Shown here piece by piece: positions 1 through 16,468 of a DNA stretch of 20,927 nt. The position numbers and the translations under genes were made by a program. The DNA is from a virus: positions 1-20,927 of the IMG/VR virus record IMGVR_UViG_3300007504_000082. The stretch is one strand, 5' to 3'. The notes beneath the pieces were generated by a model. It saw nothing but the letters and a program-made list of their open reading frames with translations, did no database searches and had not been told where the DNA came from. Position 1 is the first letter of the stretch; every line of letters starts with the position of its first letter.

Positions 1-1
1 T

Positions 2-1207
2 AATGGAAAAGAAATAACTCCTGAGAATAGAGGAGAGTTTTGGTTAGCCGTACACGGAGCTAATATGTATGGGAATGATAAAGTATCTTTAGAAGATAGA
101 GTTAAATGGGTTAATGATAATGAACAGTGGATAGTTAATTGTGCTCAAGACCCTTTTAGACATAGAGAATGGGAAGACGCTTCTAATGCTTTTCAATTCT
201 TAGCGTGGTGTGATGAGTGGAGAAGATACCAAGCTAGAGGAATAAACGAAAAGTTTATATCTCATTTACCTGTTAATGTTGATGGGAGTTGTAATGGTCT
301 TCAATTATATTCTTTAATGTTAAGAGATAGTGTTGCGGGTAAGTTAGTTAATTTACTTCCGTCAGATACACCTCAAGACATTTATCAATTAGTTGCTAAT
401 GCTGTTAATGAAAAGTTAAAAGTACACGCTTCAGAAGATAGACCTTATGCTCAGCAGTGGTTAGATTATGGAGTTAAGCGTTCTACTACTAAACGAAGTA
501 TTATGACAATTTGTTATGGCTCAACAAGATACTCTTGTACGGACTTTGTAATAGAAGATTTAACCAAGAGACAAGATAAAGGCGAACACCACCCTTTTGT
601 TAATGATTTATTTAGACCTGCTTCTTATTTGGCTAGTGTCATTTGGGATAGCATAGGGGATAATTTAAAATCAGCTAGAGTGGGTATGAAGTATCTTCAG
701 GAGATAGCTAAGATTGTTTCAAAAGAACAATTACCTATACACTGGGTCACACCAGTAGGATTTCCAGTTTATCAATCCTATCCTGAAATGAAGTCTAAAA
801 GAGTTAAAGCTATGCTTATGGGAGAAGTTATAAAACCCCGTATCAATGCTGAGACTGATAAGACAGATAAATTGCGTATGTCAAATGGAGTAGCTCCTAA
901 CGTAGTTCACTCCGTAGATTCCGCAGGTATGATTAAGACTGTTAATTTTGCTCATAAAAACGGAGTTAAGAATTTCTGTAATGTGCACGACAGCTTTGGT
1001 ACAACTGCGGGTGATGTAGAAATGTTAAATAAAAGTATAAGAGAAGCCTTTATTGATATGTTTTCTAATCACGACATACTAGAGAAGTTCAGGCAAGATG
1101 TTGAGAAACAATTACCTGATAAATTGAAGGCTAAATTACCTGAAGTCCCTCAAAAAGGTGATTTAGATATAAATAAACTGAGGGAAAGTAAGTTCTTTTT
1201 TGCGTAA
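2..1207 (+). CDS. T7-like single-subunit DNA-dependent RNA polymerase, C-terminal part (5' truncated by window edge)
   Basis: Phage-encoded single-subunit RNA polymerase that transcribes the middle and late phage genes. The reading frame is open from base 2, so the true start lies upstream of the window. The polymerase palm and fingers are visible. The DGSCNG motif has its Asp at 281-283 (T7 Asp537). TTKRSIM has its Lys at 491-493 (T7 Lys631), followed eight residues later by the Tyr at 515-517 (T7 Tyr639, which selects rNTPs). HDSFGT has its His and Asp at 986-991 (T7 His811/Asp812). The protein ends in FFFA, close to the aromatic-Ala C-terminus of T7 RNA polymerase, which contributes to the active site. 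All catalytic residues in the visible part are intact. The 46-base gap downstream carries a palindromic element that may be one of this enzyme's own promoters. Identification is very secure; only the N-terminal promoter-recognition part is missing from view. Confidence 0.97.
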   Translation, partial: NGKEITPENRGEFWLAVHGANMYGNDKVSLEDRVKWVNDNEQWIVNCAQDPFRHREWEDASNAFQFLAWCDEWRRYQARGINEKFISHLPVNVDGSCNGLQLYSLMLRDSVAGKLVNLLPSDTPQDIYQLVANAVNEKLKVHASEDRPYAQQWLDYGVKRSTTKRSIMTICYGSTRYSCTDFVIEDLTKRQDKGEHHPFVNDLFRPASYLASVIWDSIGDNLKSARVGMKYLQEIAKIVSKEQLPIHWVTPVGFPVYQSYPEMKSKRVKAMLMGEVIKPRINAETDKTDKLRMSNGVAPNVVHSVDSAGMIKTVNFAHKNGVKNFCNVHDSFGTTAGDVEMLNKSIREAFIDMFSNHDILEKFRQDVEKQLPDKLKAKLPEVPQKGDLDINKLRESKFFFA

Positions 1208-1213
1208 GAGCAT

Positions 1214-1237
1214 TAAAGTACCCGTACTTAGAACAAT
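1214..1237 (+). promoter_or_regulatory. Palindromic promoter-like element, copy 1 (before SSB)
   Basis: The gap between RNA polymerase and SSB holds the perfect inverted repeat AAGTACCCGTACTT (1216-1229), followed by AGAACAAT. A closely similar sequence, differing at a few positions and by one indel, occurs only once more in a gene gap, at 12359-12381. Shared skeleton: TAAAGT-R-CCCGT, then a short spacer, then TAGAA-S-AAT. In T7 the equivalent positions carry phage promoters phi2.5 and phi6.5. The call as a phage RNA polymerase promoter is an inference; a short RNA hairpin with another role is the alternative. A good ribosome binding site (GAGGAG) follows at 1244-1249. Confidence 0.5.
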
Positions 1238-1254
1238 AAAACAGAGGAGACAAA

Positions 1255-1872
1255 ATGGCGAAGAATAATAACGTCAAGGTAGTATCACCAGTTGGAGTTT
1301 CGCAATATGCGTGGCTAACGACACCTGATACTCGTTTTGATGAGACTGGTCATTATAAGACTAATCTTATTATAAACGCTAAAGAAGCTCAGTCATTGAA
1401 AGCTCAAATTGATGCTGAGATAAAGAAAAGTGTTGCTCTTGCTAAAGAGAAGGCTAAAGGAAAAGCTATTAAAGAAGCTCCTCGTCCTTATGATGATGAA
1501 ATGATTGATGGTAAAGCATCAGGAAATGTCATTTTTAAATTTAAGACGAAGGCAAAAATTATAGCTAAAGACGGAAAGGTTATACCTAATAGAGTTGCAT
1601 TATTTGATAGTGCAGGGAAACCTATGATTGACGCTAATGTTTGGTCAGGCAGTGAAATGAAAGTATCAGCAGAATTGATACCTTATTACACAGCTATGGC
1701 AGGAGCAGGTGTGTCAATGAGACTAAGAGCAGTTCAAGTAACTAAGTTAGTTGAAGGTGGCTCTAGTAATGCTAAAGGTTATGGCTTTGAAAAAGTTAAA
1801 GATGGCTATGAACAACCTGAAGCAGTAGCAGTAGAAGAAAATGTATCGCAGGAAACTTCGGCTGACTTCTAA
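1255..1872 (+). CDS. Single-stranded DNA-binding protein (T7 gp2.5-like)
   Basis: Replication ssDNA-binding protein of the T7 gp2.5 type. It coats ssDNA at the fork and contacts the polymerase and helicase. It has 205 residues (T7 gp2.5 has 232), an OB-fold-type body beginning MAKNNNVKVVSPVGVSQYAW, a Lys-rich middle, and an acidic tail ending ...VSQETSADF. The terminal Phe after acidic residues is the hallmark of gp2.5; in T7 this tail binds basic patches on the DNA polymerase. Position directly after the RNA polymerase gene and before endonuclease I matches T7. The start has a strong ribosome binding site (GAGGAG, about 5 bases upstream). The last 32 bases overlap the next gene in another frame. 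Sequence similarity within this family is low, so the assignment rests on context, length and tail together. Confidence 0.88.
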   Translation: MAKNNNVKVVSPVGVSQYAWLTTPDTRFDETGHYKTNLIINAKEAQSLKAQIDAEIKKSVALAKEKAKGKAIKEAPRPYDDEMIDGKASGNVIFKFKTKAKIIAKDGKVIPNRVALFDSAGKPMIDANVWSGSEMKVSAELIPYYTAMAGAGVSMRLRAVQVTKLVEGGSSNAKGYGFEKVKDGYEQPEAVAVEENVSQETSADF

Positions 1873-2248
1873 ACAAGTCGGAATACGATACGGATTTCGT
1901 TCAGGCTTAGAAGAGTCTGTAGCGAAAGAGCTAAAAGATAATCGTGTAGTGTATGAATTTGAAAAGACTAAGTTGAAATATACTAAGCCTCAAAAGATTC
2001 ATACCTATACGCCTGATTTTCATTTAACGAAGAAAAAAATTTTTATAGAAACAAAAGGATTATTTACTACTCAAGATAGACAGAAAATGAAATTGATTAG
2101 GGAGCAATACCCTAATTTAGATATTAGATTTATATTTTCTAATTCAAGAGCTAGGATAAGTAAGAAATCAAAAACAACTTATGGAATGTGGTGCGAAAGA
2201 TACGGATATGAATATGCCGATAAACACGTTCCGAAGGATTGGCTATGA
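1841..2248 (+). CDS. Endonuclease I / Holliday junction resolvase (T7 gp3-like)
   Basis: Structure-selective endonuclease that resolves branched replication intermediates and helps degrade host DNA. It has 135 residues (T7 gp3 has 149). The catalytic set of T7 gp3 is fully present: FRSGLE with Glu24 (T7 Glu20), Glu39 (T7 Glu35), TYTPDF with Asp59 (T7 Asp55), and IETKG with Glu70 and Lys72 (T7 Glu65, Lys67). The motif TYG.WCE near residue 117 also matches. The ATG at 1841 lies inside the 3' end of the SSB gene, giving a 32-base overlap in another frame. There is no in-frame ATG between it and the conserved FRSGLE block, so this start is accepted. The upstream Shine-Dalgarno is weak (AGAAGAAA), suggesting coupling to SSB translation. 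The stop overlaps the next ATG (ATGA). Confidence 0.95.
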   Translation: MYRRKLRLTSKQVGIRYGFRSGLEESVAKELKDNRVVYEFEKTKLKYTKPQKIHTYTPDFHLTKKKIFIETKGLFTTQDRQKMKLIREQYPNLDIRFIFSNSRARISKKSKTTYGMWCERYGYEYADKHVPKDWL

Positions 2249-2412
2249 TAGGTAGAGTAATTTATAAACAAGAGAGTGTGCAATACTATTCAGAATCAAA
2301 AGATGAATGGATTGATGTAGATACTATGGACGAACAACATTGTCGTAATGCTCTTAAAAAAATTATTAGAAAGTATGGAGTGATAAATGAGCAATATAAG
2401 AAAAGAAACTAA
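2245..2412 (+). CDS. Small hypothetical protein (55 aa) between resolvase and amidase
   Basis: Unrecognised 55-residue protein, starting at the ATG that overlaps the endonuclease stop (ATGA) and running to TAA at 2410-2412. It begins MIGRVIYKQESVQYYSES and ends in a basic stretch, ...KKIIRKYGVINEQYKKRN. There is no membrane segment and no recognisable motif; the middle is acidic (DEWIDVDTMDE) and the C-terminal third is basic. It overlaps the start of the amidase-like gene by 26 bases in another frame. The stop/start coupling at its 5' end and the lack of any other coding frame over 2249-2386 support it being real. Function unknown. Confidence 0.7.
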   Translation: MIGRVIYKQESVQYYSESKDEWIDVDTMDEQHCRNALKKIIRKYGVINEQYKKRN

Positions 2413-2812
2413 ATATATTGTTATTCATTCTTCAGAAACTAATCCGACACAGAATTTTGACGTAAAGGATATTGACATACAGCACAGAAAAGAAGGTTTG
2501 TTCTCTTGTGCATTTCACAAAGTTATTACTAGAAAAGGTGAAGTGCAAGATGGAAGAGACATACAAATCGCAGGTGCTCACGTTGATAGTAATGTTAAAT
2601 TGTCAAATAAAAATTCTATTGGTATTTGTCTAATCGGTGGACAGACAATAGATGGTAAGCCCGATTGTAATTTTACTTTTAAGCAATACGAAGCTCTTTT
2701 AGAGTTAATTCGTGATTTAAAAAAAGATTATAAAGAGGTTCAGATAGTTGGTCATAGAGATATGACTGACTCCTTATCTCCGCATTTTAACGTAAGTGAA
2801 TTGCTGAGATAG
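2387..2812 (+). CDS. T7 lysozyme-like amidase (gp3.5 family) with substituted active site
   Basis: Homologue of T7 gp3.5, a zinc N-acetylmuramoyl-L-alanine amidase that also binds and inhibits T7 RNA polymerase. It has 141 residues (T7 has 151). The fold is clear: IVIHSS with His14 (T7 zinc ligand His17), GRD at 56-58, NSIGICLIGG at 76-85, and GHRD with His123 (T7 His122). A gap-free alignment of the T7 stretch His17-His47 puts Phe43 where T7 has catalytic Tyr46. At the C-terminal motif, Ser129 replaces catalytic Lys128 and Ser131 replaces zinc ligand Cys130. Two of three zinc ligands and neither Tyr nor Lys remain, so amidase activity is doubtful. A regulatory role on the upstream RNA polymerase is the natural alternative. 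The start has GGAG six bases upstream. Family call is secure; loss of activity is inferred. Confidence 0.92.
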   Translation: MSNIRKETKYIVIHSSETNPTQNFDVKDIDIQHRKEGLFSCAFHKVITRKGEVQDGRDIQIAGAHVDSNVKLSNKNSIGICLIGGQTIDGKPDCNFTFKQYEALLELIRDLKKDYKEVQIVGHRDMTDSLSPHFNVSELLR

Positions 2813-2813
2813 T

Positions 2814-2843
2814 TTGTTTGTACCCCTTGAGGGAGTATATAAT
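2814..2843 (+). promoter_or_regulatory. Possible sigma70-type promoter before primase/helicase
   Basis: A perfect TATAAT at 2838-2843 is preceded, after an 18-base spacer, by TTGTTT at 2814-2819, a partial match to TTGACA. This would start transcription near 2850. The same TATAAT lies inside a short hairpin of the structured-RNA candidate at 2823-2897, and the region is AT-rich, so the match may be chance. Confidence 0.25.
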
Positions 2844-2897
2844 ACTCAACGGAAAATCTTAAATGATTGGAATTGTGAGGCTAAAGCTCTCAAGGGG
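2823..2897 (+). ncRNA. Candidate structured RNA / cis-regulatory element or RNase III site before primase/helicase
   Basis: The 108-base gap between the amidase-like gene and primase/helicase contains two distant complementary arms. CCCCTTGAGGG (2823-2833) pairs with CTCTCAAGGGG (2887-2897) over 11 bp with one G-U. Inside is a 5-bp hairpin, AGTAT-ATA-ATACT (2834-2846), and a weak AATC/GATT hairpin around 2855-2869, so the RNA could form a branched, three-way-junction-like fold. The downstream helicase start at 2921 has no good Shine-Dalgarno, and a 14-codon frame (2863-2907) lies within the element. Possible roles are control of helicase translation, an mRNA processing site like the RNase III sites of T7 (R3.8 is nearby in T7), or a novel ncRNA. 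It does not match the group I intron core I know. Confidence 0.45.
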
Positions 2898-2920
2898 AAA
2901 TATTTAACAGAAAAATTTTT

Positions 2921-4513
2921 ATGGAAAAACAGGAAAGCAACTTTTTATATCACACGCCCTGCAATAATTGCGGTTCGTCAGACGCTAATTCAGTTTATGA
3001 TGATGGACACACTTATTGTTTCTCGTGTAACACAACAACAAGAGGAAATGATTTGACACAACCAAAAGAAAAAACAAGTAGTGAATTTATTAGTGGCACA
3101 GCAGTACCTTTAATTAAAAGAAAAATAGATTTAGATACTGCAAGAAAATTTAATTATCAAATGGGAGCTTGGTTTGGAAGACCAGTTCAGATAGCTAATT
3201 ACTATGATAAAGATAAAAATTTAGTTGCACAAAAATTAAGAAACCCTGACAAAACTTTTCAATGGTTAGGAGACGCAAGACAGTCAGGTTTATTTGGACA
3301 ACACCTTTGGAGAGATAAAGGTAAGATGATAATAATTACAGAAGGCGAGATAGATTGCCTTAGCGTTTCTCATATCAACCAAAATAAATTTCCAGTAGTA
3401 AGTGTAAAGAGTGGAGCTCAAGGAGCTAAGAAAGATATTCAAAGAGAGCTAGAGTGGCTTGAAGGATTTGATTCAGTAGTGTTAATGTTTGACCAAGATG
3501 AACAAGGTAAACAAGGAGCTATTGAATGTGCTAAATTATTCTCACCTAATAAAGCTAAGATATGTAGTCTTCCTTTAAAAGATGCTAATGAAATGTTAGT
3601 TGCAGGTAAGACTAGAGAATTAATAGATTGTTTATGGTCTAGTAAAGCATACAGACCTGATGGAATAGTTTTAGGTGCAGACCTATGGAATGAAATTAAA
3701 AAAGAAGATACTTATGTAACAGTTCCTTATCCTTTTGAGTGTTTAAATACTAAGACACACGGATTGAGAAAAGGAGAATTAGTTACTGTTACAGCAGGTA
3801 CAGGAATTGGTAAAAGTTCTTTTTGTAGACACGTTGCATTACATTTATTAGAAAAAGATTTTAGCGTAGGTTATATTGCACTAGAAGAAAGTGTTAAACG
3901 TAGTGCTCTTGGAATTATGGGAGTGTCTATAAAGAAACCTTTACATTTAACACGAGAAGGGACAGATGAGAAGGAACTCAATAAAACTTTTAAAGCAACA
4001 GTTGGTAACGGGAAATTTTATCTCTACAATCATTTTGGTAGCACTCTTGCTGATAATCTATTATCAAAAATAAGATATTTAGCTAAGGCTTGTGGTGTAG
4101 ACTTTGTAATATTAGACCATTTACATATGGCTCTATCATCTATTGGTGATGAACATACTAATGATGAAAGAAAACTAATTGATTATACTGTTTCTAAACT
4201 AAGAACATTAGTGGAAGAGACTGGTATAGGATTAATATTAGTTAGTCATTTAAGAAGGTCTGAGGGAGACAAAGGCTTTGAAGATGGTAAGAGTGTAGGA
4301 TTAAATGCTCTTAGAGGTAGTCAAAGTATTGCTCAACTATCCGATATAATAATTGGAATGAATAGAAATTTACAAGCTGATAATAATATTGCTCAAGTAA
4401 ATATATTAAAGAATAGATTTTCAGGTGAAACTGGAAAGGCTTGTAACCTTTATTATGATTTAAAGACTGGCTGTTTAAGTGAAGTTAAAGGAGAATTGTC
4501 TGATGAGTTTTGA
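2921..4513 (+). CDS. Bifunctional DNA primase/helicase (T7 gp4-like)
   Basis: Replicative primase-helicase: it unwinds the fork as a ring and makes RNA primers. It has 530 residues (T7 gp4A has 566). The N-terminal zinc-binding domain has Cys14, Cys17, Cys33 and Cys36, with FLYHTPCNNCGSSD very like T7. A TOPRIM primase core follows (ITEGEID about 142-148, MFDQDEQG about 189-196). The RecA-like helicase has Walker A GTGIGKS (293-299, Lys298) and Walker B VILDH (Asp399). The C-terminus is ...KGELSDEF, an acidic tail ending in Phe; in T7 such a tail contacts DNA polymerase. The ATG at 2921 is chosen because the zinc domain starts straight after it. No obvious internal start equivalent to T7 gp4B is seen. 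No strong Shine-Dalgarno precedes it; see the structured element upstream. Confidence 0.97.
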   Translation: MEKQESNFLYHTPCNNCGSSDANSVYDDGHTYCFSCNTTTRGNDLTQPKEKTSSEFISGTAVPLIKRKIDLDTARKFNYQMGAWFGRPVQIANYYDKDKNLVAQKLRNPDKTFQWLGDARQSGLFGQHLWRDKGKMIIITEGEIDCLSVSHINQNKFPVVSVKSGAQGAKKDIQRELEWLEGFDSVVLMFDQDEQGKQGAIECAKLFSPNKAKICSLPLKDANEMLVAGKTRELIDCLWSSKAYRPDGIVLGADLWNEIKKEDTYVTVPYPFECLNTKTHGLRKGELVTVTAGTGIGKSSFCRHVALHLLEKDFSVGYIALEESVKRSALGIMGVSIKKPLHLTREGTDEKELNKTFKATVGNGKFYLYNHFGSTLADNLLSKIRYLAKACGVDFVILDHLHMALSSIGDEHTNDERKLIDYTVSKLRTLVEETGIGLILVSHLRRSEGDKGFEDGKSVGLNALRGSQSIAQLSDIIIGMNRNLQADNNIAQVNILKNRFSGETGKACNLYYDLKTGCLSEVKGELSDEF

Positions 4514-4724
4514 TAAAGTTTTTAAACATAGAAGACAATCTATACAGTGGACTGCTTATGTTTTAGAAGCTGTAGGCAAAGCTAAAAAATATCAAAGACC
4601 AGTTACTTTAGATGTAGCTAAAGAAACTTCAGCTCTTATGTTAGAAGATGCTCTTTTAAATTTAGCTATGAATGGAGAAAATGCGGCGTGGAGAGTAGAA
4701 GTTAAACTACATACATTACAATGA
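4503..4724 (+). CDS. Small hypothetical protein (73 aa) after helicase
   Basis: Unrecognised 73-residue soluble protein, beginning MSFDKVFKHRRQSIQWTAY. The start at 4503 is preferred over an in-frame ATG at 4479 because AAAGGAG sits about nine bases upstream and the result overlaps the helicase stop by only 11 bases. The sequence is helical in character (VLEAVGKAKKYQRP, ETSALMLEDALLNLAMNG) with a basic N-terminus. No catalytic motif is visible. Its stop overlaps the next ATG by three bases (ATGA). Codon use resembles its neighbours. Function unknown. Confidence 0.75.
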   Translation: MSFDKVFKHRRQSIQWTAYVLEAVGKAKKYQRPVTLDVAKETSALMLEDALLNLAMNGENAAWRVEVKLHTLQ

Positions 4725-4807
4725 AAAATTTTCCATATAATATAAACATAATGGCGATGTTTGTTTTTATAGTATTGTATTTATTAATAGTGGAGATAAT
4801 ATTTTAA
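4721..4807 (+). CDS. Single-helix membrane micropeptide (28 aa)
   Basis: Twenty-eight codons from an ATG overlapping the upstream stop (ATGA) to TAA immediately before the next ATG at 4808. The peptide starts MKNFPYNINI and continues as an unbroken hydrophobic helix (residues 10-28, MAMFVFIVLYLLIVEIIF) with a single Glu near the end. The exact tiling of start and stop against both neighbours, with no spare bases, supports translation. Such peptides in phages can affect membrane or lysis functions, but there is no direct evidence for a role here. Confidence 0.55.
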   Translation: MKNFPYNINIMAMFVFIVLYLLIVEIIF

Positions 4808-5086
4808 ATGAAAAAGAAACCTAGTGAACCACTTATAATTGGCGGAAAAAGATATTACAAATATAAAATTATTTGGGAAGATATTGTTGGTGATTCAACT
4901 TTAGCAACTGAAAATGAATTTAGTAAGATGACTTGTGCTGATGTGCATACTGAGTGTTGGATATTTAATAAGACACCTGATTATGTTTATTCTTTTGCAA
5001 GTTATTTTACAGAAAATGGAGAGATAGAATTTGGTGATAGAAATATCTATCCTCGCAGTGTTATTAAAAGTATGAAGAGGATATAA
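4808..5086 (+). CDS. Conserved-looking phage hypothetical protein (92 aa)
   Basis: Unrecognised 92-residue protein. It is rich in aromatic and charged residues (YYKYKIIWEDIVGDS about 16-30, MTCADVHTECWIF about 41-53, and a C-terminal FGDRNIYPRSVIKSMKRI). It looks like a compact alpha/beta domain; no signal peptide or membrane helix. The ATG follows the preceding TAA directly, and the stop is one base before the next ATG. Position among replication genes suggests an early or middle gene product. Function unknown. Confidence 0.75.
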   Translation: MKKKPSEPLIIGGKRYYKYKIIWEDIVGDSTLATENEFSKMTCADVHTECWIFNKTPDYVYSFASYFTENGEIEFGDRNIYPRSVIKSMKRI

Positions 5087-5087
5087 T

Positions 5088-5270
5088 ATGTCAGACTATC
5101 AAAAATTATTAGAAATGTGGAGAGATGAAAAACAAAAGCGACAAAAACTTGAAACAGAAAATAATAAATTAAAAGAAGATTTGAAGACAGAAAAGTTAGA
5201 TAGAGAATATGACAAATCAGTACACACACAAGAAATAGAAGATTTAATGAAAGGTAAATTTAAAAAATGA
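5088..5270 (+). CDS. Small coiled-coil hypothetical protein (60 aa)
   Basis: A 60-residue, highly charged protein that reads as one long helix with a probable coiled coil (residues about 5-40: LLEMWRDEKQKRQKLE followed by NNKLKEDLKTEKL). There are no cysteines or prolines. GAGGAT lies about seven bases before the ATG. The end overlaps the DNA polymerase start by four bases (ATGA), implying coupled translation. It could be a small replication accessory or dimerising regulator; nothing in the sequence decides this. Confidence 0.7.
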   Translation: MSDYQKLLEMWRDEKQKRQKLETENNKLKEDLKTEKLDREYDKSVHTQEIEDLMKGKFKK

Positions 5271-6997
5271 AATATTGTTTTGATATAGAGACAGATGGTT
5301 TTTTAAATCAATGCACTAAAGTACATTGTATAGTATTAAAAAATATTGATACTAATGAAATACTAAAATTAAAAAATGAAGACGCTATAAAAAAATTAGA
5401 ACAAGCGGATTTAATTATTGGACATAACATTATTAAATTTGACATACCCGTCCTAGAAAAGTTTTACGACTTTAAACCTAAAGGAAAGGTTTTTGATACA
5501 ATAGTAGCAACTCGTTTACTTTACCCTGATGTAAAGGAGCGAGATTTTAAAAGAAAAGACTTCCCTACTAATTGTATAGGACGACACAGCTTGAAAGCGT
5601 GGGGGTATAGGGTGGGTAACTACAAGGAAGTCTTTGATACTGACTGGAAAGAATACAGTCCTGCGATGTTGGACTATTGTATTCAAGATGTTGAAGTAAC
5701 TGATAGTTTATATAAAGCTATGGAACGTAAAGGTTATTCTTGTCAGGCGATGGAGTTAGAACACGAAGTAGCAACTTTAATCTTTAAACAAGAGCGTTAT
5801 GGTTTTATGTTTAATACAGATGAAGCAGTTAAATTGTATTCTAAATTAAATGCGAGACGTTTAGAGTTGGAAGAACAATTACAAAAATTGTTTCCACCAA
5901 AACTAGAGCGTACACCATTTATTCCTAAAGTTAATAACAAAACTAGAGGTTATGTTAAAGGTGAAACTTTTTATAAAGAAAAGACTGTTACTTTTAATCC
6001 GAGTTCAAGACATCACATAGCAGATAGATTAATTGAAAGACATAATTGGAAACCTGAAGAGTATACTAATGATGGTAAACCAAAATTAGATGAAACAGTT
6101 TTAGCTAGTCTTCCATATCCTGAAGCAAAAGTTTTATGTGAACACTTTTTATTAGATAAAAGGATAGGACAATTAGCAACTGGTGCTCAGGCTTGGTTGA
6201 AGAATGAAATAAGTGGTAGAATACACGGCACTTGTAATACTAATTCAACAGTAACAGCTCGTGCTAGTCATACAAACCCTAACTTAGGACAAGTTCCAAG
6301 TGTTACAGTTCCTTATGGAAAAGAATGTAGAAGTTTATTCACTGTACCTAGTGGAAAAAAATTAGTTGGTATAGATATATCAGGATTAGAAGTCAGATTA
6401 TTAGCACACTTTATGTCTAAGTTTGATGAAGGAGAATATTCTAAAGTAGTTTTAAATGGTGATATACATACTGAAACAAAAGAATTAGCAGGGTTAGATT
6501 CAAGAGACCTTGCAAAAAGATTTTACTACTGCTTCCTTTATGGTGGTGGTGTAAAAAAGATTGCCTTAGTAACAGGTAAGAGTACAAAAGAAGCAAAGAA
6601 GATACGAGAAAGATTTTTAAATAATCTTCCTGCTTTGAGTAAGTTATTAAAGCAAGTACAACAAGCGGCTGAAAGAGGATATTTAATAGGTCTTGATAAA
6701 AGACAAATTAAAATTCGTTCAGTTCACGCCGCACTCAATTCACTTTTACAAAGTGCAGGAGCTATAGTTTGTAAGCAGTGGTTAGTTGAGTTTAACAAAG
6801 CTGTTAAAGAATATTCTGATGTTCAACAGGTTGTTTGGGTGCACGATGAAATCCAAGTAGAGTGTCCTGAAGATACAGCAGAAGAGATAGGAAAGTTAGC
6901 CGTAGAATCTATTAAGCGTACTGGTAAACATTTCAATTTAAGATTACCTTTAACGGGAGAATATAAAATAGGAAATAATTGGAGTGAAACACATTAA
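5267..6997 (+). CDS. Family A DNA polymerase with 3'-5' exonuclease (T7 gp5-like), shortened thumb
   Basis: Replicative DNA polymerase. It has 576 residues against 704 in T7 gp5. The proofreading domain is intact: DIETDG with Asp6 and Glu8, GHNIIKFDIPVL (Exo II) near residue 50, and DYCIQDVEVTDSLY (Exo III). The polymerase has motif A DISGLEVRLLAHF with Asp370, motif B RDLAKRFYYCFLYGG with Arg413, Lys417 and Tyr421 (T7 Tyr526, the sugar-selectivity residue), and motif C HDE at 526-528. Between the first thumb helix and the FNPSSR motif there are only about 40 residues where T7 has about 80 including its thioredoxin-binding loop, so thioredoxin-type processivity may be lost or altered. The start overlaps the coiled-coil gene (ATGA) and the stop overlaps the next start (TAATG). 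Confidence 0.97.
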   Translation: MKYCFDIETDGFLNQCTKVHCIVLKNIDTNEILKLKNEDAIKKLEQADLIIGHNIIKFDIPVLEKFYDFKPKGKVFDTIVATRLLYPDVKERDFKRKDFPTNCIGRHSLKAWGYRVGNYKEVFDTDWKEYSPAMLDYCIQDVEVTDSLYKAMERKGYSCQAMELEHEVATLIFKQERYGFMFNTDEAVKLYSKLNARRLELEEQLQKLFPPKLERTPFIPKVNNKTRGYVKGETFYKEKTVTFNPSSRHHIADRLIERHNWKPEEYTNDGKPKLDETVLASLPYPEAKVLCEHFLLDKRIGQLATGAQAWLKNEISGRIHGTCNTNSTVTARASHTNPNLGQVPSVTVPYGKECRSLFTVPSGKKLVGIDISGLEVRLLAHFMSKFDEGEYSKVVLNGDIHTETKELAGLDSRDLAKRFYYCFLYGGGVKKIALVTGKSTKEAKKIRERFLNNLPALSKLLKQVQQAAERGYLIGLDKRQIKIRSVHAALNSLLQSAGAIVCKQWLVEFNKAVKEYSDVQQVVWVHDEIQVECPEDTAEEIGKLAVESIKRTGKHFNLRLPLTGEYKIGNNWSETH

Positions 6998-7452
6998 TGC
7001 TAAATACAAATAAAGAGACAAAGAAAGAGTGCGACTTTACATTAGACAAACCTTCAAATTTTAGAAAAGATTTGGAATATGGTCAAGAACGAGAGAAAAG
7101 AGTTATGGACTTATTACATCAAAAAGCAGGTACTAAGTTTGAAGTAAAAACCGAAAGAGATTGGTGGTATAGAACTGATAATATAGCCATAGAAATAGCT
7201 TGTAATGGTAGACCATCAGGAATAATGGCTACGAAGTCTGAGCAGTGGATTCATATATTAGCTGACCCTGTTAGTGGTAAAGATTGCTGTAAAATTTGGT
7301 TTGATACTTCTACTGTTAGACGATTAGCTGAAAAGTACAAAAAAAATACTAAAAATGGTGGTGATGGATATAGAAGTAAGTTTGTTTTAATTCCATTGTC
7401 CGAAATATTATTAGCAAAAAATTTAATAGAGAATAATGGAAAGGAAATATGA
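6997..7452 (+). CDS. Conserved phage protein, possible PD-(D/E)XK-like nuclease
   Basis: A 151-residue soluble protein lying between DNA polymerase and 5'-3' exonuclease. The core EVKTERDWWYRTDNIAIEIA (residues about 48-67), then NGRPSGIMATKSEQWIHI, resembles phage proteins with a restriction-endonuclease-like fold: a Glu in a preceding helix (GQEREKRV), strands with an acidic residue, then a turn with Gly-x-Pro-Ser-Gly. The textbook D-x(n)-ExK spacing is not clean, so nuclease activity is a hypothesis from family resemblance and from the neighbours, which are all DNA-processing enzymes. The start overlaps the polymerase stop by one base (TAATG); the end overlaps the exonuclease start by four bases (ATGA). 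Confidence 0.6.
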   Translation: MLNTNKETKKECDFTLDKPSNFRKDLEYGQEREKRVMDLLHQKAGTKFEVKTERDWWYRTDNIAIEIACNGRPSGIMATKSEQWIHILADPVSGKDCCKIWFDTSTVRRLAEKYKKNTKNGGDGYRSKFVLIPLSEILLAKNLIENNGKEI

Positions 7453-8201
7453 AAAAAAAGGTATTACTAATAGATGGAGATATATTAGCGTATAAAATAG
7501 CTACAGCTAATGAAGTGAGTACACATTGGGGTGATGGTTTTTGGACATTACATTGTGATGAAACTCAATGTAAGTTTGAAGTGGACGCTCAGATAAATGA
7601 TTTGGGTTCTACTTTAGAAGCTGACGATTACATTTGTGCTTTAACTGATAAGAATAATTTTCGTAAAGATGTTCTTCCAAGTTACAAAGACAATCGTAAA
7701 CAAAGACGTAAGCCTATGGTTTTAAATGCTCTTCGTGATTACATTATGAAAAAACATAATGGAGTTATGTGGAAAAATTTAGAAGCTGACGATGTTATGG
7801 GTATAATGGCAACTGAACCACACCCTACTGAAGACAGGATTATTGTTTCTATTGATAAAGATATGAGACAGATACCTGCTAAGGTTAGTAGAGATGGTGA
7901 AACAGTTGAGGATATACCTCAAAGATTAGCTGACTATTGGTTTATGATACAAACATTGGCGGGTGATAGTACCGATGGGTATAACGGACTGCCAAATGTA
8001 GGGGTAAAAACTGCTGAGAAAATGATTAAGCAGTATACTAATGTACCCCTTTTAGACCTATGGAAGATAGTAGTTGGTGCTTATAAGGCTAAAGGCTTTA
8101 CTAAGAAAGAGGCTTTACAACAAGCTAGAGTTGCACATATTCTTAGACATAAAGAATACAATAAGAAGACTGGGAAAGTGAAGCTATGGCAGATAAAGTA
8201 A
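7449..8201 (+). CDS. 5'-3' exonuclease (T7 gp6-like, FEN family)
   Basis: Exonuclease of the FEN/T5-exonuclease superfamily that removes RNA primers and degrades host DNA to supply nucleotides. It has 250 residues (T7 gp6 has 300). Metal-binding acidic motifs are visible: LLIDGDILAY (Asp9, Asp11), LEADDVMGIMA (Glu and two Asp), VSIDKDMRQIP (two Asp), and LAGDSTDGYNGLPNVGVKTA (helix-3-turn-helix with Asp). The closing part, ARVAHILRHKEYN...LW, matches the T7 gp6 C-terminus. The start overlaps the upstream gene (ATGA). The 3' end overlaps the DUF3310 gene by 16 bases in another frame. It lacks about 50 residues relative to T7, mostly near the N-terminus. Confidence 0.94.
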   Translation: MKKKVLLIDGDILAYKIATANEVSTHWGDGFWTLHCDETQCKFEVDAQINDLGSTLEADDYICALTDKNNFRKDVLPSYKDNRKQRRKPMVLNALRDYIMKKHNGVMWKNLEADDVMGIMATEPHPTEDRIIVSIDKDMRQIPAKVSRDGETVEDIPQRLADYWFMIQTLAGDSTDGYNGLPNVGVKTAEKMIKQYTNVPLLDLWKIVVGAYKAKGFTKKEALQQARVAHILRHKEYNKKTGKVKLWQIK

Positions 8202-8470
8202 AACAACCACCTCACTATTTTAGATTTAAGATAGAACCTATTACCTTTATTATGCAGAATGATATTCCGTATGCTGAAGGTAATGCTATTAAATATATTT
8301 GTCGTTGGAGATGGAAACACAAAACTAAAGAAGCTCAGATTGAAGACCTAAAGAAAGCTAAACAATACATTGATTTAATATTAGAACACGAGGAGAATAA
8401 ATCTGATGAACAAGTAAAACTTAAACTAGGGAATGACCCTTCGGGATTAAGAAAGACTGGTGTATTATAA
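8186..8470 (+). CDS. DUF3310 protein (similar to C-terminal domain of T7 gp1.7)
   Basis: A 94-residue protein with the DUF3310 signature: PPHYFRFKIEPITFI, then GNAIKYICRWRWKHKTKEAQIEDLKKAKQYIDLIL. The same pattern (PSHY...I.A...GN.LKY..R...K...EDL.KA..Y) occurs in the C-terminal half of T7 gp1.7, which acts as a nucleoside monophosphate kinase in T7. This homologue lacks the gp1.7 N-terminal cysteine-rich part, so kinase activity should not be assumed. It starts within the exonuclease gene (16-base overlap) and its stop overlaps the SpeD-like start (TAATG). A role in nucleotide metabolism is plausible given the nearby ribonucleotide reductase. Confidence 0.85.
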   Translation: MADKVKQPPHYFRFKIEPITFIMQNDIPYAEGNAIKYICRWRWKHKTKEAQIEDLKKAKQYIDLILEHEENKSDEQVKLKLGNDPSGLRKTGVL

Positions 8471-8841
8471 TGTTGAAGCACAACCATATAATCATTAGGG
8501 CTGAAGTAAAAAAGCCACCGAAGGACATTCGCTTCGCAAGAAAATGGATAAGAAAATTTATTAAAGCAATAGATATGAAGATGTTAGGGCAACCTAATTC
8601 TCATTATGTCTATGATAAAGGGAATAGAGGACTTACTTGTCTTGCTATTCTTAGTACCTCACACATCGCTTTGCATACTTGGGACGAAGTGTCTCCTGCA
8701 TTAATGCAATTAGATGTTTATTCGTGTAGTGATTTAGATAAGAAAATTGTTTTTAAACAGATAGAACAATTTGAACCAAAGGAGATAAATTATGTTACGA
8801 TTGACAGGGATAAAGCTATTCATATTAGCAGTTCTTCTTAA
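8470..8841 (+). CDS. speD: SpeD-like pyruvoyl decarboxylase (S-adenosylmethionine decarboxylase family)
   Basis: A 123-residue homologue of prokaryotic S-adenosylmethionine decarboxylase, a self-cleaving pyruvoyl enzyme that feeds spermidine synthesis. Key residues are present: Ser64 in LSTSHIALHTW (would become the pyruvoyl group), His69 (processing), and Cys86 in VYSCSD (catalytic). The residue before the cleavage serine is Thr63 where the family usually has Glu (ESH), and the His-Cys spacing is two residues longer than in the Thermotoga enzyme. Some SpeD homologues are known to have moved to arginine or ornithine as substrate, so the substrate is open. It overlaps the upstream gene by one base, and the following lipoprotein gene begins inside its 3' end. 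Phage polyamine genes may help DNA packaging or host metabolism. Confidence 0.85.
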   Translation: MLKHNHIIIRAEVKKPPKDIRFARKWIRKFIKAIDMKMLGQPNSHYVYDKGNRGLTCLAILSTSHIALHTWDEVSPALMQLDVYSCSDLDKKIVFKQIEQFEPKEINYVTIDRDKAIHISSSS

Positions 8842-9196
8842 TGGGTGCAGTGAGTTTGCCCTATTATCAAGTGGTGGTAGTTTAGCTATAAGTAATAATA
8901 CATATGCAAAAGCCTATAGTGGTATAGATTTTGCTACAGCATTAACAACAGAAAAAGATATTAAAACTCACGCATATCATTATGTTAAAAAAGTTAAAGA
9001 ACTTAAAGAGTCAGTTATTAATAATAATAATAAAATTGAAACTGTTAAAACTATACCAGTGGAAGAGTCTATTCTCTATCCACCTGATGTAAACTTATTA
9101 CTAGCTTCAATATGGACTTATAAAGAAGATAAAATAAAAAACAATAGAATACAATTATATTCTATAAATCAAACGGGTTATGAATTAAAATGGTAA
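8792..9196 (+). CDS. Putative phage-encoded lipoprotein (134 aa)
   Basis: A 134-residue protein with a lipoprotein signal peptide: a basic N-terminus (MLRLTGIK), a hydrophobic core (LFILAVLL) and the lipobox LNGC with the lipidated Cys at 19. The mature part begins SEFALLSSGGSLAISNN, then has a charged helical region (VKKVKELKESVINNNNKIETVK; NNNN encoded by an AAT repeat near 9020) and a C-terminal SIWTYKEDKIKNNRIQLYS. Probably exported and anchored in a host membrane, where it could act in superinfection exclusion, surface modification or lysis; no specific function is recognised. AAAGGAG sits about seven bases before the start, one of the best ribosome binding sites in this block, and fixes the start although it overlaps the SpeD-like gene by 50 bases. 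Confidence 0.8.
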   Translation: MLRLTGIKLFILAVLLNGCSEFALLSSGGSLAISNNTYAKAYSGIDFATALTTEKDIKTHAYHYVKKVKELKESVINNNNKIETVKTIPVEESILYPPDVNLLLASIWTYKEDKIKNNRIQLYSINQTGYELKW

Positions 9197-9202
9197 AATA
9201 AA

Positions 9203-9487
9203 ATGGCGGATAAAAGATACAACTATAATAGTAAGAATCGTAATATGGCAGGAAATCCGATACACCAACCAACGGAAAAATATAAAAAAGGTTGGGATAG
9301 AATATTTGGTAAAAAGAAAACTGAATCAGAAAAATTACAAGAAGAATTAGAGCCTATAGATAAAGAAACAGAAAAGTTTTTTGATGATATAGCTAACAAC
9401 ACTCCTAACTCAGAACAATTTAATGACGAACCAAAAACTAGATTAGAACAAATCGCAAAATTAAAACACGACCCTATTGTAGATTAA
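9203..9487 (+). CDS. Hydrophilic hypothetical protein (94 aa)
   Basis: Unrecognised 94-residue, strongly hydrophilic protein, starting MADKRYNYNSKNRNMAGN. The N-terminal half is basic (KYKKGWDRIFGKKKTESEK), the C-terminal half acidic (LEPIDKETEKFFDDIANN). No membrane helix or motif; likely partly disordered. It lies six bases after the lipoprotein stop and two bases before nrdA. Function unknown. Confidence 0.7.
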   Translation: MADKRYNYNSKNRNMAGNPIHQPTEKYKKGWDRIFGKKKTESEKLQEELEPIDKETEKFFDDIANNTPNSEQFNDEPKTRLEQIAKLKHDPIVD

Positions 9488-9489
9488 AA

Positions 9490-11241
9490 ATGGATTATAA
9501 TAAAGACAATTTACTAACCGACTTCGGTAAGACTACATTAAAAGATAGATACTTATTACCTGATGAGCACTCTCCGCAAGATGCTTTTATGAGAGCGGCG
9601 AAAGCCTTTTCAGATAATGAAGAAATGGCAGAAAGAATATATGAGTATGTGTCTAATCTTTGGTGTATGTTTTCTACTCCTATCCTCAGTAATGCAGGAA
9701 CTAAAAGAGGTATGCCTATCTCTTGTTTCTTAAATTATGTGGGTGATAGTAGAGGAGAACTTGCTGAACACTATACAGAAAACGCTTGGTTAGCTTCTGT
9801 TGGTGGTGGTATTGCAGGATATTGGGGACACGTTAGGTCTGATGGAACATTGACTTCAGGTGGCTCTCAATCTTCAGGAGTAATTCCTTTTATGCACGTT
9901 GTTGATTCTTTAATACTTGCTTTTTCACAAGGCAAAACTAGAAGAGGAAGTTATGCTTCTTATATGGACATAACACACCCTGAGATATTAGAATTTTTAG
10001 ATATAAGAAAACCTAGTGGTGGAGATATACATAGAAAATGTTTAAACTTACATCACGGAGTTAATATACCTAATACTTTTATGGAACTCATAGAGAACTG
10101 TATTAAAGAACCTACCTATGATGACAGTTGGGATTTAATAGACCCACATACAAAAGAAAAAGTAAAAACAATATCAGCACGAGATTTGTGGCAAAAAATT
10201 TTAGAGAATCGTGTTGCTACAGGTGAGCCTTATGTTTGTTTTACTGATACTATAAATGAAGATTTACCTCAACCACAAAAAGATTTAGGATTAACAGTTA
10301 ATCATTCTAATCTTTGTACTGAAATTACCCTACCTACCAATGAAACACGAACAGCCGTTTGTTGTTTATCTTCCCTTAACTTAGAAAAATATGAGGAATG
10401 GAAAAAAGATAGTTTATTTATTCCTGATATGATTCGTTTCCTAGATAACGTATTACAATACTTTATTGATTACGCACCTGATGAATTATTTAAAGCGAGA
10501 TTTAGTGCGAATAATGAAAGAAGTCTAGGTCTAGGTACTATGGGTTTTCACGCTTACTTACAATCACAAAACATTCCGTTTGAATCTGCTTTAGCCAAAG
10601 CAAAGAATCTCCAAATATTTAAAAAAATAAAAGAAGAAGCTGTAGCTGAATCAAAAAGGTTGGCAGTTAAGAGAGGGGAAGCTCCTGATATGGAAGGGAC
10701 TGGTATGCGTAATGCACATTTATTAGCTATCGCACCTAATGCTTCTTCATCTATTATTTGTGGAACAACATCACCATCAATAGAACCTTATAGAGCTAAT
10801 GCTTATGTTCAAAAAACAATGTCAGGTTCTTTCTTGGTTAAGAATAAATATTTAGAAAAACTTTTAGAAAAGAAAGGTATTAATACTGAAGAAATATGGT
10901 CAAGTATTGTATCTAATAGAGGTTCAGTATTACATTTAAAAGAATTAACGGATTATGAAAAAGATATATTTAAAACAGCTATAGAAATTAATCAACAATG
11001 GATTATAGAACACGCCGCAGATAGACAGAAGTTTATTTGTCAAGCACAAAGTCTTAATGTATTTGTTCCTGCTGATGTAGATATAAAAGAACTACACGAT
11101 ATACATATGTTAGCTTGGAAAAGAAAATTAAAAACTCTTTACTATTGTCGTTCAGAAGCAATCAAAAGAGCTGAATTAGTTTCTAAAAAAATAGAAAGAA
11201 CAATCATACCTGAAGCAGATTGTTTAGCGTGTGAGGCATAA
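9490..11241 (+). CDS. nrdA: Class I ribonucleotide reductase alpha subunit, no ATP-cone
   Basis: Large subunit of aerobic ribonucleotide reductase, converting ribonucleotides to deoxyribonucleotides for phage DNA synthesis. It has 583 residues against about 760 in E. coli NrdA. Active-site residues by E. coli numbering: Cys79 (C225) in MPISCF; Asn274, Cys276 and Glu278 (N437, C439, E441) in NLCTEI; Cys291 (C462) in VCCLSSLNL; Tyr551-Tyr552 (Y730/Y731) in LYYCRSEA; and the C-terminal redox pair Cys578/Cys581 in DCLACEA. Phosphate-binding APNASSS and GLGTMGFHA are present. The N-terminal ATP-cone is absent: the protein begins at the region just before the alpha/beta barrel. Feedback inhibition by dATP through the cone is therefore not expected. 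The stop overlaps the next small ORF (TAATG). Confidence 0.97.
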   Translation: MDYNKDNLLTDFGKTTLKDRYLLPDEHSPQDAFMRAAKAFSDNEEMAERIYEYVSNLWCMFSTPILSNAGTKRGMPISCFLNYVGDSRGELAEHYTENAWLASVGGGIAGYWGHVRSDGTLTSGGSQSSGVIPFMHVVDSLILAFSQGKTRRGSYASYMDITHPEILEFLDIRKPSGGDIHRKCLNLHHGVNIPNTFMELIENCIKEPTYDDSWDLIDPHTKEKVKTISARDLWQKILENRVATGEPYVCFTDTINEDLPQPQKDLGLTVNHSNLCTEITLPTNETRTAVCCLSSLNLEKYEEWKKDSLFIPDMIRFLDNVLQYFIDYAPDELFKARFSANNERSLGLGTMGFHAYLQSQNIPFESALAKAKNLQIFKKIKEEAVAESKRLAVKRGEAPDMEGTGMRNAHLLAIAPNASSSIICGTTSPSIEPYRANAYVQKTMSGSFLVKNKYLEKLLEKKGINTEEIWSSIVSNRGSVLHLKELTDYEKDIFKTAIEINQQWIIEHAADRQKFICQAQSLNVFVPADVDIKELHDIHMLAWKRKLKTLYYCRSEAIKRAELVSKKIERTIIPEADCLACEA

Positions 11242-11411
11242 TGGACGGAAAGAAACCTGATGTTATTCAAGTAGAATATGATGACAATAAAAAAGTTATC
11301 TATGTCAATAAAGATAAGCAAACAGTATTGTGGACTGTATACCACACAATTTTAGCCTTAGAATTAGGTGCAATAGTTATTATAGAAGGGATTGAATTAT
11401 TAACACGATGA
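11241..11411 (+). CDS. Small ORF (56 aa) intercalated between nrdA and nrdB
   Basis: Fifty-six codons starting at the ATG that overlaps the nrdA stop (TAATG) and ending at a TGA that overlaps the nrdB ATG (ATGA). It fills the nrdA-nrdB gap exactly, so it is very likely translated. It begins MDGKKPDVIQVEYDDNKK, then has YVNKDKQTVLWTVYHTI and a hydrophobic C-terminal helix (ILALELGAIVIIEGIELL). There is no CxxC, so it is not a glutaredoxin or thioredoxin. It might peripherally associate with a membrane or with the reductase; function unknown. Confidence 0.72.
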   Translation: MDGKKPDVIQVEYDDNKKVIYVNKDKQTVLWTVYHTILALELGAIVIIEGIELLTR

Positions 11412-12361
11412 GTTTATTTAAAGAAAGAATACACTATAAACCATTTGATTATGACTGGGCGTTTGAATCATATGATACTATGCAAAAAATGCACTGGCTT
11501 CCTAGTGAAGTACCCTTACACGAAGATATAAGAGATTGGAATGAAAGACTTACTAAAGAAGAGAAGAATTTAATTAATCAAATATTAAAATTTTTTACTC
11601 AAGGTGATGTAGATATAGCTAAAGCATACTTAGATAATTATATTCCTAAGTTTAAACCACCTGAAATTAGAATGATGTTGTCTGCTTTTGCTAGTTCTGA
11701 AGCTAACCACGCTCACGCTTATGCTTTACTTAATGATACTTTAGGTGAGCCTGAATTGTTAGACTTTAAAGCATTTCAAGAATACAAAGAGATGGCAGAT
11801 AAACACGAATATTTATTTAAAGATAAAGGAAAAGGTCTTCAAGGTTTAGCTAGAGACATCGCTTGTTTCTCTGCATTTGGAGAAGGACTACAACTGTTTG
11901 CCTCATTTGTTATGCTACTTAACTTTCAAAGATATGGTAGAATGAAAGGTATGTGTCAGATAGTTACTTGGTCTATTAGAGATGAGACACACCACGTTGA
12001 AAGTATGATTAAATTATTTAAAACATTAGTAAAAGAAAACCCGAATATTTGGACAGAAAAATTCAAAGCAAGTATCTATCAAACAGCAAGAGATATGGTT
12101 GAGCTTGAAGATAAATTCATAGATTTAGCTTTTGGTATGGGTGGTATTAGAGGACTAAGTGCTGATGAAGTTAAGAAATATATAAGATATATAGCGGATA
12201 GACGACTGCTACAGTTATCATTAAAGCCTAATTATAAAGTTAAAGATAACCCTTTAGGGTGGTTAGATTGGGTATTAAATGGTGTAGAACACGCTAATTT
12301 CTTTGAGAATAGAGCAACAGAATACAACAAAGGAACTTTAACTGGGAAACTTTGGAACTAA
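11408..12361 (+). CDS. nrdB: Class I ribonucleotide reductase beta subunit (R2)
   Basis: Small radical-generating subunit of ribonucleotide reductase; 317 residues. The diiron ligands are complete by E. coli numbering: Asp67 (D84) in TQGDVD; Glu98 and His101 (E115, H118) in SSEANHAHAY; the Glu in FGEGLQLF (E204); and Glu and His in RDETHHVES (E238, H241). Tyr105 sits four residues after His101, the place of the radical Tyr122, so this is a tyrosyl-radical R2 rather than a Tyr-less type. Start overlaps the preceding small ORF (ATGA). No NrdI, thioredoxin or glutaredoxin gene is in the window, so re-reduction probably relies on host proteins or genes outside it. The stop codon is the first part of the palindromic element at 12359. 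Confidence 0.97.
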   Translation: MSLFKERIHYKPFDYDWAFESYDTMQKMHWLPSEVPLHEDIRDWNERLTKEEKNLINQILKFFTQGDVDIAKAYLDNYIPKFKPPEIRMMLSAFASSEANHAHAYALLNDTLGEPELLDFKAFQEYKEMADKHEYLFKDKGKGLQGLARDIACFSAFGEGLQLFASFVMLLNFQRYGRMKGMCQIVTWSIRDETHHVESMIKLFKTLVKENPNIWTEKFKASIYQTARDMVELEDKFIDLAFGMGGIRGLSADEVKKYIRYIADRRLLQLSLKPNYKVKDNPLGWLDWVLNGVEHANFFENRATEYNKGTLTGKLWN

Positions 12362-12381
12362 AGTGCCCGTTTTAGAAGAAT
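12359..12381 (+). promoter_or_regulatory. Palindromic promoter-like element, copy 2 (before structural operon)
   Basis: Second copy of the element at 1214-1237: TAAAGTGCCCGTTTTAG then AAGAAT. It starts at the nrdB stop codon and fills the 23-base gap before the gene preceding the portal operon. It is also an imperfect palindrome (CTAAA...TTTAG around GCCCG). Differences from copy 1 partly preserve pairing. Position corresponds to T7 phi6.5, the start of class III transcription. Inferred promoter for the phage RNA polymerase. Confidence 0.5.
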
Positions 12382-12384
12382 TAT

Positions 12385-12570
12385 ATGGCAAAAAATAACG
12401 AAGAAGATTTAGTTTTACCTATCAAATCAGAAGATTTGGTAAAACTTTTGAATAATGTATACCCTGAGAAGTCACCTAATTTAAAAGATGATACTAAGAC
12501 TATCTATTTTAAAGCAGGTCAAAGGGACGTAGTACGATTCATAAACACACTTAAAGAGAGGACTAAATAA
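12385..12570 (+). CDS. Small hypothetical protein (61 aa), first gene of the structural block
   Basis: A 61-residue soluble protein, starting MAKNNEEDLVLPIKSEDLV. It has an acidic N-terminus and a C-terminal helix, KAGQRDVVRFINTLKERTK. It occupies the place of T7 gene 6.5 (first gene after phi6.5) but I see no clear residue-level similarity. No signal or membrane segment. Function unknown. Confidence 0.75.
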   Translation: MAKNNEEDLVLPIKSEDLVKLLNNVYPEKSPNLKDDTKTIYFKAGQRDVVRFINTLKERTK

Positions 12571-12572
12571 CT

Positions 12573-12800: not shown

Positions 12801-12809
12801 AGGATATAA

Positions 12810-16405: not shown

Positions 16406-16441
16406 TATAATAACTTCAAGATATGCCTAGTGGGTATCTTG
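16406..16441 (+). promoter_or_regulatory. hsp20 leader: TATAAT box and hairpin
   Basis: Just after the terminator there is a perfect TATAAT (16406-16411) without a recognisable -35, then a hairpin with 7-bp arms CAAGATA (16417-16423) and TATCTTG (16435-16441). The hairpin could protect the 5' end of an hsp20 transcript or, if a promoter lies here, act as an operator. Either way it suggests that hsp20 has its own control signals. Confidence 0.35.
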
Positions 16442-16468
16442 ATTAACTCGCCTAAGAAAGGGGGAAAT

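Follow-up and report, generated by a model that had tools for sequence, protein, structure and literature searches.

The stretch of DNA analysed here (the window, 20,927 bases) is a segment of a Pelagivirus-type phage (Autographiviridae), as judged from its gene content read against annotated relatives, with ten small genes assigned through PHROG. Its genes run in the order RNA polymerase (RNAP) C-terminus, gp2.5, endonuclease I, gp3.5, primase, DNA polymerase, ribonucleotide reductase, portal, capsid, and tail genes. The gp3.5 gene lies downstream of RNAP between endonuclease I and primase, an order also found in T7 and in cultured Pelagivirus, and when gp3.5 is compared, HTVC031P is the closest annotated phage (74% identity). 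The genes around gp3.5 that concern us are the following.

65..1207, plus strand: phage RNA polymerase, C-terminal part (frame open from base 2)
1841..2248, plus strand: endonuclease I, conserved neighbour upstream of gp3.5 (PHROG)
2387..2812, plus strand: gp3.5 homologue with T7-lysozyme fold and eroded amidase site (ATG start, 141 aa)
2921..4513, plus strand: primase/helicase, conserved neighbour downstream of gp3.5 (directly after endonuclease I in gp3.5-less relatives)

A 57-aa ORF with a weak match to PHROG 6655 (2239-2412) separates endonuclease I from gp3.5 at the place where these two genes overlap by 4 bases in HTVC031P, and an Hsp20 gene (PHROG 432; 16430-16864) lies between the capsid and tail tube genes, where HTVC031P has no annotated gene.

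Using HMMER, the window gp3.5 matched T7 lysozyme (1lba/1aro) at E ~1e-20; it also matched Pfam Amidase_2 and PHROG 822 ('amidase'). Its AlphaFold2 model (mean pLDDT 81.9) has the T7 lysozyme fold (TM 0.91 to 1lba, Z 23.1), and the protein is by descent an orthologue of T7 gp3.5 within the Amidase_2 family. T7 lysozyme (gp3.5; an N-acetylmuramoyl-L-alanine amidase, 1LBA/1ARO) shares with it the fold, the length, the gene order (RNAP, gp2.5, endonuclease I, gp3.5, primase), and two of three zinc ligands. It differs in that the catalytic Tyr46 and Lys128 and the ligand Cys130 are gone from the window protein, which also has a shorter N-terminal tail and a 4-residue loop insertion and belongs to a phage with a separate lysin gene. 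The residues concerned map as follows.

2426..2428, plus strand: His14, equivalent to T7 His17, first zinc ligand, kept (HMMER alignment, codon)
2513..2515, plus strand: Phe43, at the position of T7 catalytic Tyr46, changed (HMMER alignment, codon)
2753..2755, plus strand: His123, equivalent to T7 His122, second zinc ligand, kept in the window (HMMER alignment, codon)
2771..2773, plus strand: Ser129, at the position of T7 Lys128, changed (HMMER alignment, codon)
2777..2779, plus strand: Ser131, at the position of T7 Cys130, third zinc ligand, changed (HMMER alignment, codon)
2783..2785, plus strand: His133, possible substitute zinc ligand (codon; co-occurrence with Ser/Ala131)

A catalytic zinc amidase of this family has the three ligands His17, His122, and Cys130 together with Tyr46 and Lys128; the window protein has Ser131 for the third ligand and Phe43 and Ser129 for the last two. 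The first-pass annotation had drawn this same map (H17 to H14, Y46 to F43, H122 to H123, K128 to S129, C130 to S131), and it is reproduced when HMMER aligns the last loop without gaps. A gapped multiple alignment moves the K128 and C130 columns by one, and loop states were therefore read ungapped; under either alignment the window loop, HRDMTDSLSPHF, contains neither Lys nor Cys. Eight IMG/VR loci besides the window encode gp3.5 at 99-100% identity, and one locus, L018, is 100.000% identical to window positions 1-12,809 (the full reach of L018), so the residue changes are not sequencing errors. L018 also covers sequence upstream of the window and, given this identity over 12,809 bases, is in effect the same virus.

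To place these changes among relatives, we tabulated active-site residues in 256 complete gp3.5 sequences (171 Pelagivirus-type, 83 Stopavirus-type, T7, and CRP-113). The Pelagivirus-type gene is complete (at least 120 aa) in 171 of 174 loci, the other three being cut by contig ends and dropped. All five canonical residues are intact in none of the 171 Pelagivirus-type sequences versus all 83 Stopavirus-type ones, and T7 and CRP-113 are likewise intact; in control loci from other scans, the five residues are intact in 60/60 T7-like and 17/18 CRP-113-like cases. Given the intact T7-like, Stopavirus, and CRP-113-like sets, the loss in Pelagivirus-type gp3.5 is beyond chance. The sole CRP-113-like exception (L419) is a weak partial match (38%) and therefore probably not a true orthologue.

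Summed over the table rows, Tyr46 is replaced by Phe in 165 of the 171 Pelagivirus-type sequences, Cys130 by Ser or Ala in 84, and His122 in 80 (by Cys in 73, the HTVC019P group, and by Tyr in 7), and the Lys two positions before the Cys is kept in 62, all from the HTVC019P group. The 'lysozyme' gp3.5 proteins of HTVC031P, HTVC142P, Eistla, and HTVC019P are orthologues of the window protein, 46-74% identical and in the same gene place, and each has at least one canonical residue changed; they differ from the window group, which has Ser131 and His133, in keeping Cys130, with Cys at the His122 position in HTVC019P. The deposited annotations of Pelagivirus gp3.5 as 'lysozyme' are silent on the eroded site, and our literature search found no title or abstract describing eroded gp3.5 in pelagiphages, although subscription journals were thinly covered and an earlier description is possible.

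A scan with endonuclease I reached further gp3.5 members, whose active sites were read by eye. The mildest case is L388, whose only departure from the canonical set is Lys to Thr; PGRP-LB has Thr in place of Lys128 as well. HTVC168P and L388 keep Tyr and the three ligands, and judging by these residues L388 and HTVC168P-type gp3.5 may still be active. HTVC109P has Tyr at the His122 position, His17 and Cys130 are both gone from L381 and L393, and no zinc ligand at all is left in L375 or L377. The 80 endonuclease loci comprised 66 with gp3.5, 7 too short, and 7 without gp3.5, three of which (L399-L401) are distant phages. In the fragment contigs L384/L385 and L390/L391 primase directly follows endonuclease I, and we did not find gp3.5; the Sieqvirus S42C7 genome shows the same arrangement. 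The gp3.5 of Votkovvirus S28C10 (L427 31225-31557; annotated 'lysozyme') is a truncated remnant that lacks both His17 and the C-terminal zinc ligands, and erosion of gp3.5 is thus not confined to Pelagivirus. On a gp3.5 tree of 96 distinct rows, which includes one in five of the Stopavirus ones and has a short alignment and many open forks, Tyr46, His122, and Cys130 each changed at least three times; a primase tree did not resolve the placement of the gp3.5-less lineages. The first-pass annotation had described the amidase active site as dismantled and had asked whether the changes were clade-wide among marine homologues. With none of the 171 sequences intact, the description is borne out, and the erosion is both clade-wide and graded, from one residue up to ligand-free proteins or absence of the gene.

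What these changes do to the enzyme can be judged from mutants of related proteins. According to PMC8124813, Y46F abolishes the amidase activity of T7 lysozyme and Y78F does likewise in PGRP-LB; with C160S in PGRP-LB, which corresponds to C130S, the crystal lacks zinc and activity is reduced but not abolished. The window gp3.5 carries both Tyr46 to Phe and Cys130 to Ser, and from the effects of such changes in T7 lysozyme and PGRP-LB we infer that amidase activity has been lost. The earlier comparison with non-catalytic peptidoglycan recognition proteins (PGRPs), which had rested on their having the same Cys-to-Ser change, is incomplete: these animal proteins share the fold and a lost zinc site, but their catalytic Tyr, which is Phe here, is invariant even among non-catalytic members (PMC8124813).

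A second lysis gene is present in these phages. All 12 cultured Pelagivirus genomes examined have a lysin gene after the maturase B or terminase gene, deposited as 'lysozyme', 'lysozyme murein hydrolase', or, in HTVC031P, 'putative peptidase'; by Pfam, the scanned cultured-phage lysins are Phage_lysozyme (GH24), and that of HTVC031P is Pesticin. In HTVC109P the GH24 lysozyme gene is separated from maturase B by a glucosaminidase gene (PF01832; L004 39481-39975). We scanned the slot after maturase B using stop-to-stop frames, since some lysin frames start inside maturase B. A lysin directly follows maturase B in 30/30 Pelagivirus-type records in which the maturase B end can be read (near-duplicates included), and with the L375 record, where a PHROG-873 'endolysin' domain follows maturase B alongside a ligand-free gp3.5, the total is 31/31, a count of presence and not of independent discovery because the HMMs were built partly from slot genes (that of L053 from its one gene). 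By family, the 31 records have 24 GH24-like, 5 pesticin-type, and 2 PHROG-873 lysins, families being named by Pfam or PHROG only for the proteins scanned. The same scan found no lysin after maturase B in 4/4 Stopavirus records, T7, or CRP-113; CRP-113 has a Hydrolase_2 gene elsewhere. The GH24 (T4-type) and pesticin-type phage lysozymes that fill this slot in most window relatives belong to families other than gp3.5 and are glycan-cutting enzymes, not amidases.

For the virus of the window, the first-pass annotation had expected the gene responsible for lysis to lie beyond the window, and such a gene exists: in L018 maturase B is immediately followed by a GH24-like lysozyme gene, some 5 kb upstream of where the window begins, in line with the 31/31 checkable records; the window itself has no match to our A1 lysozyme profile. 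The GH24-like domain of the L018 protein has no Pfam family at E 0.1, but lysozyme/endolysin PHROGs match it, as does the A1 profile (1.4e-51). It is preceded by a 45-residue leader with one hydrophobic helix, a predicted signal anchor. L039 has the same arrangement, and in L022 and L037 an almost identical leader precedes a pesticin-type domain. The leader-fused lysins, each with the 45-residue leader and hydrophobic helix, are located as follows.

L018, 1810-2424: leader and GH24-like domain
L039, 1758-2390: leader and GH24-like domain
L022, 2114-2830: leader and pesticin-type domain
L037, 1871-2596: leader and pesticin-type domain

The leader joins the lysin domain at the Met-Asp where unfused homologues begin. 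This arrangement amounts to a domain swap behind a shared leader, itself probably a signal anchor, and the fused proteins are possibly SAR-type endolysins or products of a dual-start gene.

Searches of whole records returned fewer matches than the slot scan. With A1, 5 of 14 records matched, 5 of the other 9 having pesticin-type or PHROG-873 slot genes, and the records of L063, L066, L069, and L072 (24-31 kb) gave no A1 match. A second A1 set of 12 records, six of them 9-14 kb fragments, gave 3 matches, one of which contains a flagged TAG, and in this set the L375 record has its PHROG-873 gene instead; the L157 (39 kb) and L261 (33 kb) records had no A1 lysin match, and their maturase B slot was not located. 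PF00959 matched 3 of 17 records and missed the GH24-like gene of the L263 record that the slot scan found, and PF16754 matched 1 of 17, and none of 12 in the second set. Among gp3.5-less phages, maturase B was not found in the L385 and L391 records (fragments fetched whole), and S42C7 has no ORF of at least 60 aa between the terminase end (33829) and 34899. Comparative evidence strongly supports the view that the amidase has been lost and a lysin has replaced it, which we regard as very probable.

With the cutting site lost and lysis seemingly covered by a separate lysozyme gene, gp3.5 probably survives for another job. Median pairwise dN/dS of gp3.5, from within-group pairs with dS of 0.2-1.2, is 0.160 in the window group, 0.169 in the 031P group, 0.178 in the 019P group, and 0.176 in intact Stopavirus; for the 109P group (0.077) only 2 pairs were available. 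Purifying selection on Pelagivirus gp3.5 therefore stays strong, like that on intact Stopavirus. In the Pelagivirus-type alignment the catalytic columns vary while other columns are fixed, and His14 is invariant in all 82 distinct sequences aligned. The peptidoglycan groove appears remodelled, with the 4-residue loop insertion placed after T7 residue 69, T7 His68 replaced by Ile in roughly half the distinct sequences, and Trp41 mostly replaced.

T7 lysozyme also binds RNAP, and PMC5445346 places its polymerase-binding region at residues 2-52 and its contacts on T7 RNAP at 307, 309-312, 720, 721, 724, 726, 728, 736, 844, 850-853, and 855. The N-terminal tail of T7-type lysozymes is used for, or important in, RNAP inhibition (PMC10138996). 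This tail is about 4 residues shorter in window-clade gp3.5 than in T7, and the window protein thus departs from a T7-type inhibitor, whose N-terminal tail contacts RNAP. On the polymerase side, part of the patch falls within the window.

728..775, plus strand: RNAP segment aligned to part of the T7-lysozyme contact patch (contact list from PMC5445346)
740-742, plus strand: RNAP His, equivalent to T7 His726 (alignment to T7 RNAP)
770-772, plus strand: RNAP Tyr, equivalent to T7 Trp736 (alignment to T7 RNAP)

In a plain comparison of 11 polymerases few contacts are conserved; the cognate RNAP keeps H726, V728, and an aromatic residue at 736, but not most of the others. Among gp3.5-bearing Pelagivirus-type loci that have residues at these positions, in counts that include repeat fetches and close relatives, H726 is present in 204/205 and an aromatic residue at 736 in 203/205. 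Both are also found in 3/3 loci whose gp3.5 lacks His17 (L375, L377, L381). The gp3.5-less near relatives, which in those counts are four contigs from two lineages, carry R726 and, at 736, E, R, or I, and a viral search with the L422 polymerase recovered no contigs beyond two already in the set. Position 726 is H or Y and position 736 is W in T7 and 22 T7-like RNAPs; in CRP-113-like RNAPs the former is V or M and the latter M (M, V, or I in the locus counts). Stopavirus-type RNAPs, from amidase-intact phages, have H726 in 0/69 loci. Gp3.5 is present without the patch in RHEph01 (N726/Q736) and LUZ100 (R726/L736). Distant gp3.5-less phages have T/N (P-SSP7), T/V (Syn5), M/E (SP6), and H/F (phiKMV) at 726/736; Lo5R7ANS has F726/Y736 and no gp3.5 in the 9 kb read, and S28C10, with its truncated gp3.5, has H726 but R736. 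Thus phiKMV, Lo5R7ANS, and S28C10 do not fit a pattern in which the patch tracks gp3.5.

In 25 gp3.5-bearing RNAPs, 491 positions conserve their residue class; at 6 of them all three gp3.5-less near relatives depart from it, and two of the 6 are contacts (hypergeometric P=0.0012, in a test devised post hoc, once H726 and 736 had been seen); by plain identity, 1 of 12 is a contact (P=0.09). A topology with all gp3.5-bearing Pelagivirus RNAPs as one clade was not rejected (AU p=0.184), and the contrast at the patch may thus be a single event. As support for binding, the patch comparison is suggestive only, and loss of the gene in some relatives means that gp3.5 is not indispensable. The earlier proposal that the protein survives by binding RNAP accordingly gains indirect support, from constraint and from the contact patch, for a binding that is predicted from sequence. 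Retention as an RNAP binder offers the best single explanation of the conservation of gp3.5, and on balance we consider it probable.

Other readings of the conserved protein have to be set against these data. The zinc amidase might still work in a re-wired form, with His133 standing in for Cys130 in the window group and Cys122 for His122 in the HTVC019P group. His133 does accompany Ser/Ala131 in the window, in L073, and in most HTVC109P-type relatives, and in the table every state with Ser/Ala131 has it except L261 and two Ser-bearing HTVC019P-group sequences; the HTVC019P group keeps His17 and mostly Lys and Cys alongside Cys122, and HTVC168P and L388 may be active as they stand. But a substitute ligand would not replace Tyr46, without which T7 lysozyme and PGRP-LB are inactive and which is gone in 165/171. 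L375, L381, and L393 have Ser/Ala131 without His133, residue 131 being Ser in L381 and L393; the ligand-free L375 and L377 and the Tyr of HTVC109P also speak against re-wiring, as do the dedicated lysins in 31/31 checkable records, and we think a working re-wired enzyme unlikely. Alternatively, the amidase could be lost and the protein kept as a peptidoglycan binder like non-catalytic PGRPs, aiding the new lysin or sensing wall fragments. The fold is common to PGRPs and AmpD, His14 is invariant as noted above, and active-site mutants of PGRP-LB still bind peptidoglycan (PMC8124813). This role is nevertheless quite unlikely in our estimation: the groove appears remodelled, inspection by eye shows no signal peptide or wall-targeting element in gp3.5, His17 too is lost in L375, L377, L381, and L393, and a polymerase patch that tracks gp3.5 would be left unexplained.

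It is also conceivable that gp3.5 is a slowly dying relic, functionless and kept only by the shortness of elapsed time or by overlapping signals, as its absence from L384/L385, L390/L391, and S42C7 might suggest. The medians of 0.16-0.18 in the three larger Pelagivirus-type groups, equal to intact Stopavirus, and the completeness of the gene in 171/174 loci make this very unlikely. Retention for RNAP binding, by comparison, would account for both the constraint and the patch, and suggests the following history. An ancestor would have gained a dedicated lysin right after maturase B (terminase), mostly a GH24 or pesticin-type muramidase and in some cases preceded by a predicted signal anchor. 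Once another gene provided for lysis, selection would no longer have maintained the gp3.5 amidase site, which would then have eroded piecemeal by lineage at Tyr46 (to Phe), Lys128, Cys130, His122, and His17, while the rest of the protein would have remained constrained by binding to the phage's own single-subunit RNAP near the T7-lysozyme patch (726-736), where it may act as a stoichiometric brake or switch. The erosion, the constraint, and the second lysin gene are observed; we infer the order of events and the polymerase binding. Taken whole, from new lysin through eroded amidase to retention for RNAP binding, the scenario seems to us rather more probably right than wrong.

Stopavirus (HTVC011P, HTVC025P, HTVC041P), another pelagiphage group, has the same gene and neighbours as the window, but with the full H-Y-H-K-C site, no lysin after maturase B, and an RNAP without His726. 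The RNAP of HTVC041P (L010) and HTVC025P (L011) is annotated as two ORFs, and a split RNAP gene in this group is seemingly discussed in PMC6811365. There is perhaps an even chance that the two groups represent a natural separation of function, in which Pelagivirus gp3.5 would be a dedicated RNAP regulator whose enzyme has been replaced by a swappable lysin (GH24, pesticin-type, or PHROG-873), and Stopavirus the opposite, with the amidase kept and the polymerase patch absent.

The eroded gp3.5 is a variant of a known protein family and not a new kind of system. T7 lysozyme, a component of the pET expression system, is a standard case of two unrelated functions in one protein: it cuts the cell wall and restrains the polymerase. 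The names 'lysozyme' and 'amidase' in databases seem misleading for this gene of common marine phages, in which, our results suggest, the lysis gene sits elsewhere. Pelagivirus supplies many enzyme-off gp3.5 variants, together with RNAP partners with and without gp3.5, and makes it testable whether the two jobs are naturally separable and whether control of RNAP is general in T7-like phages.
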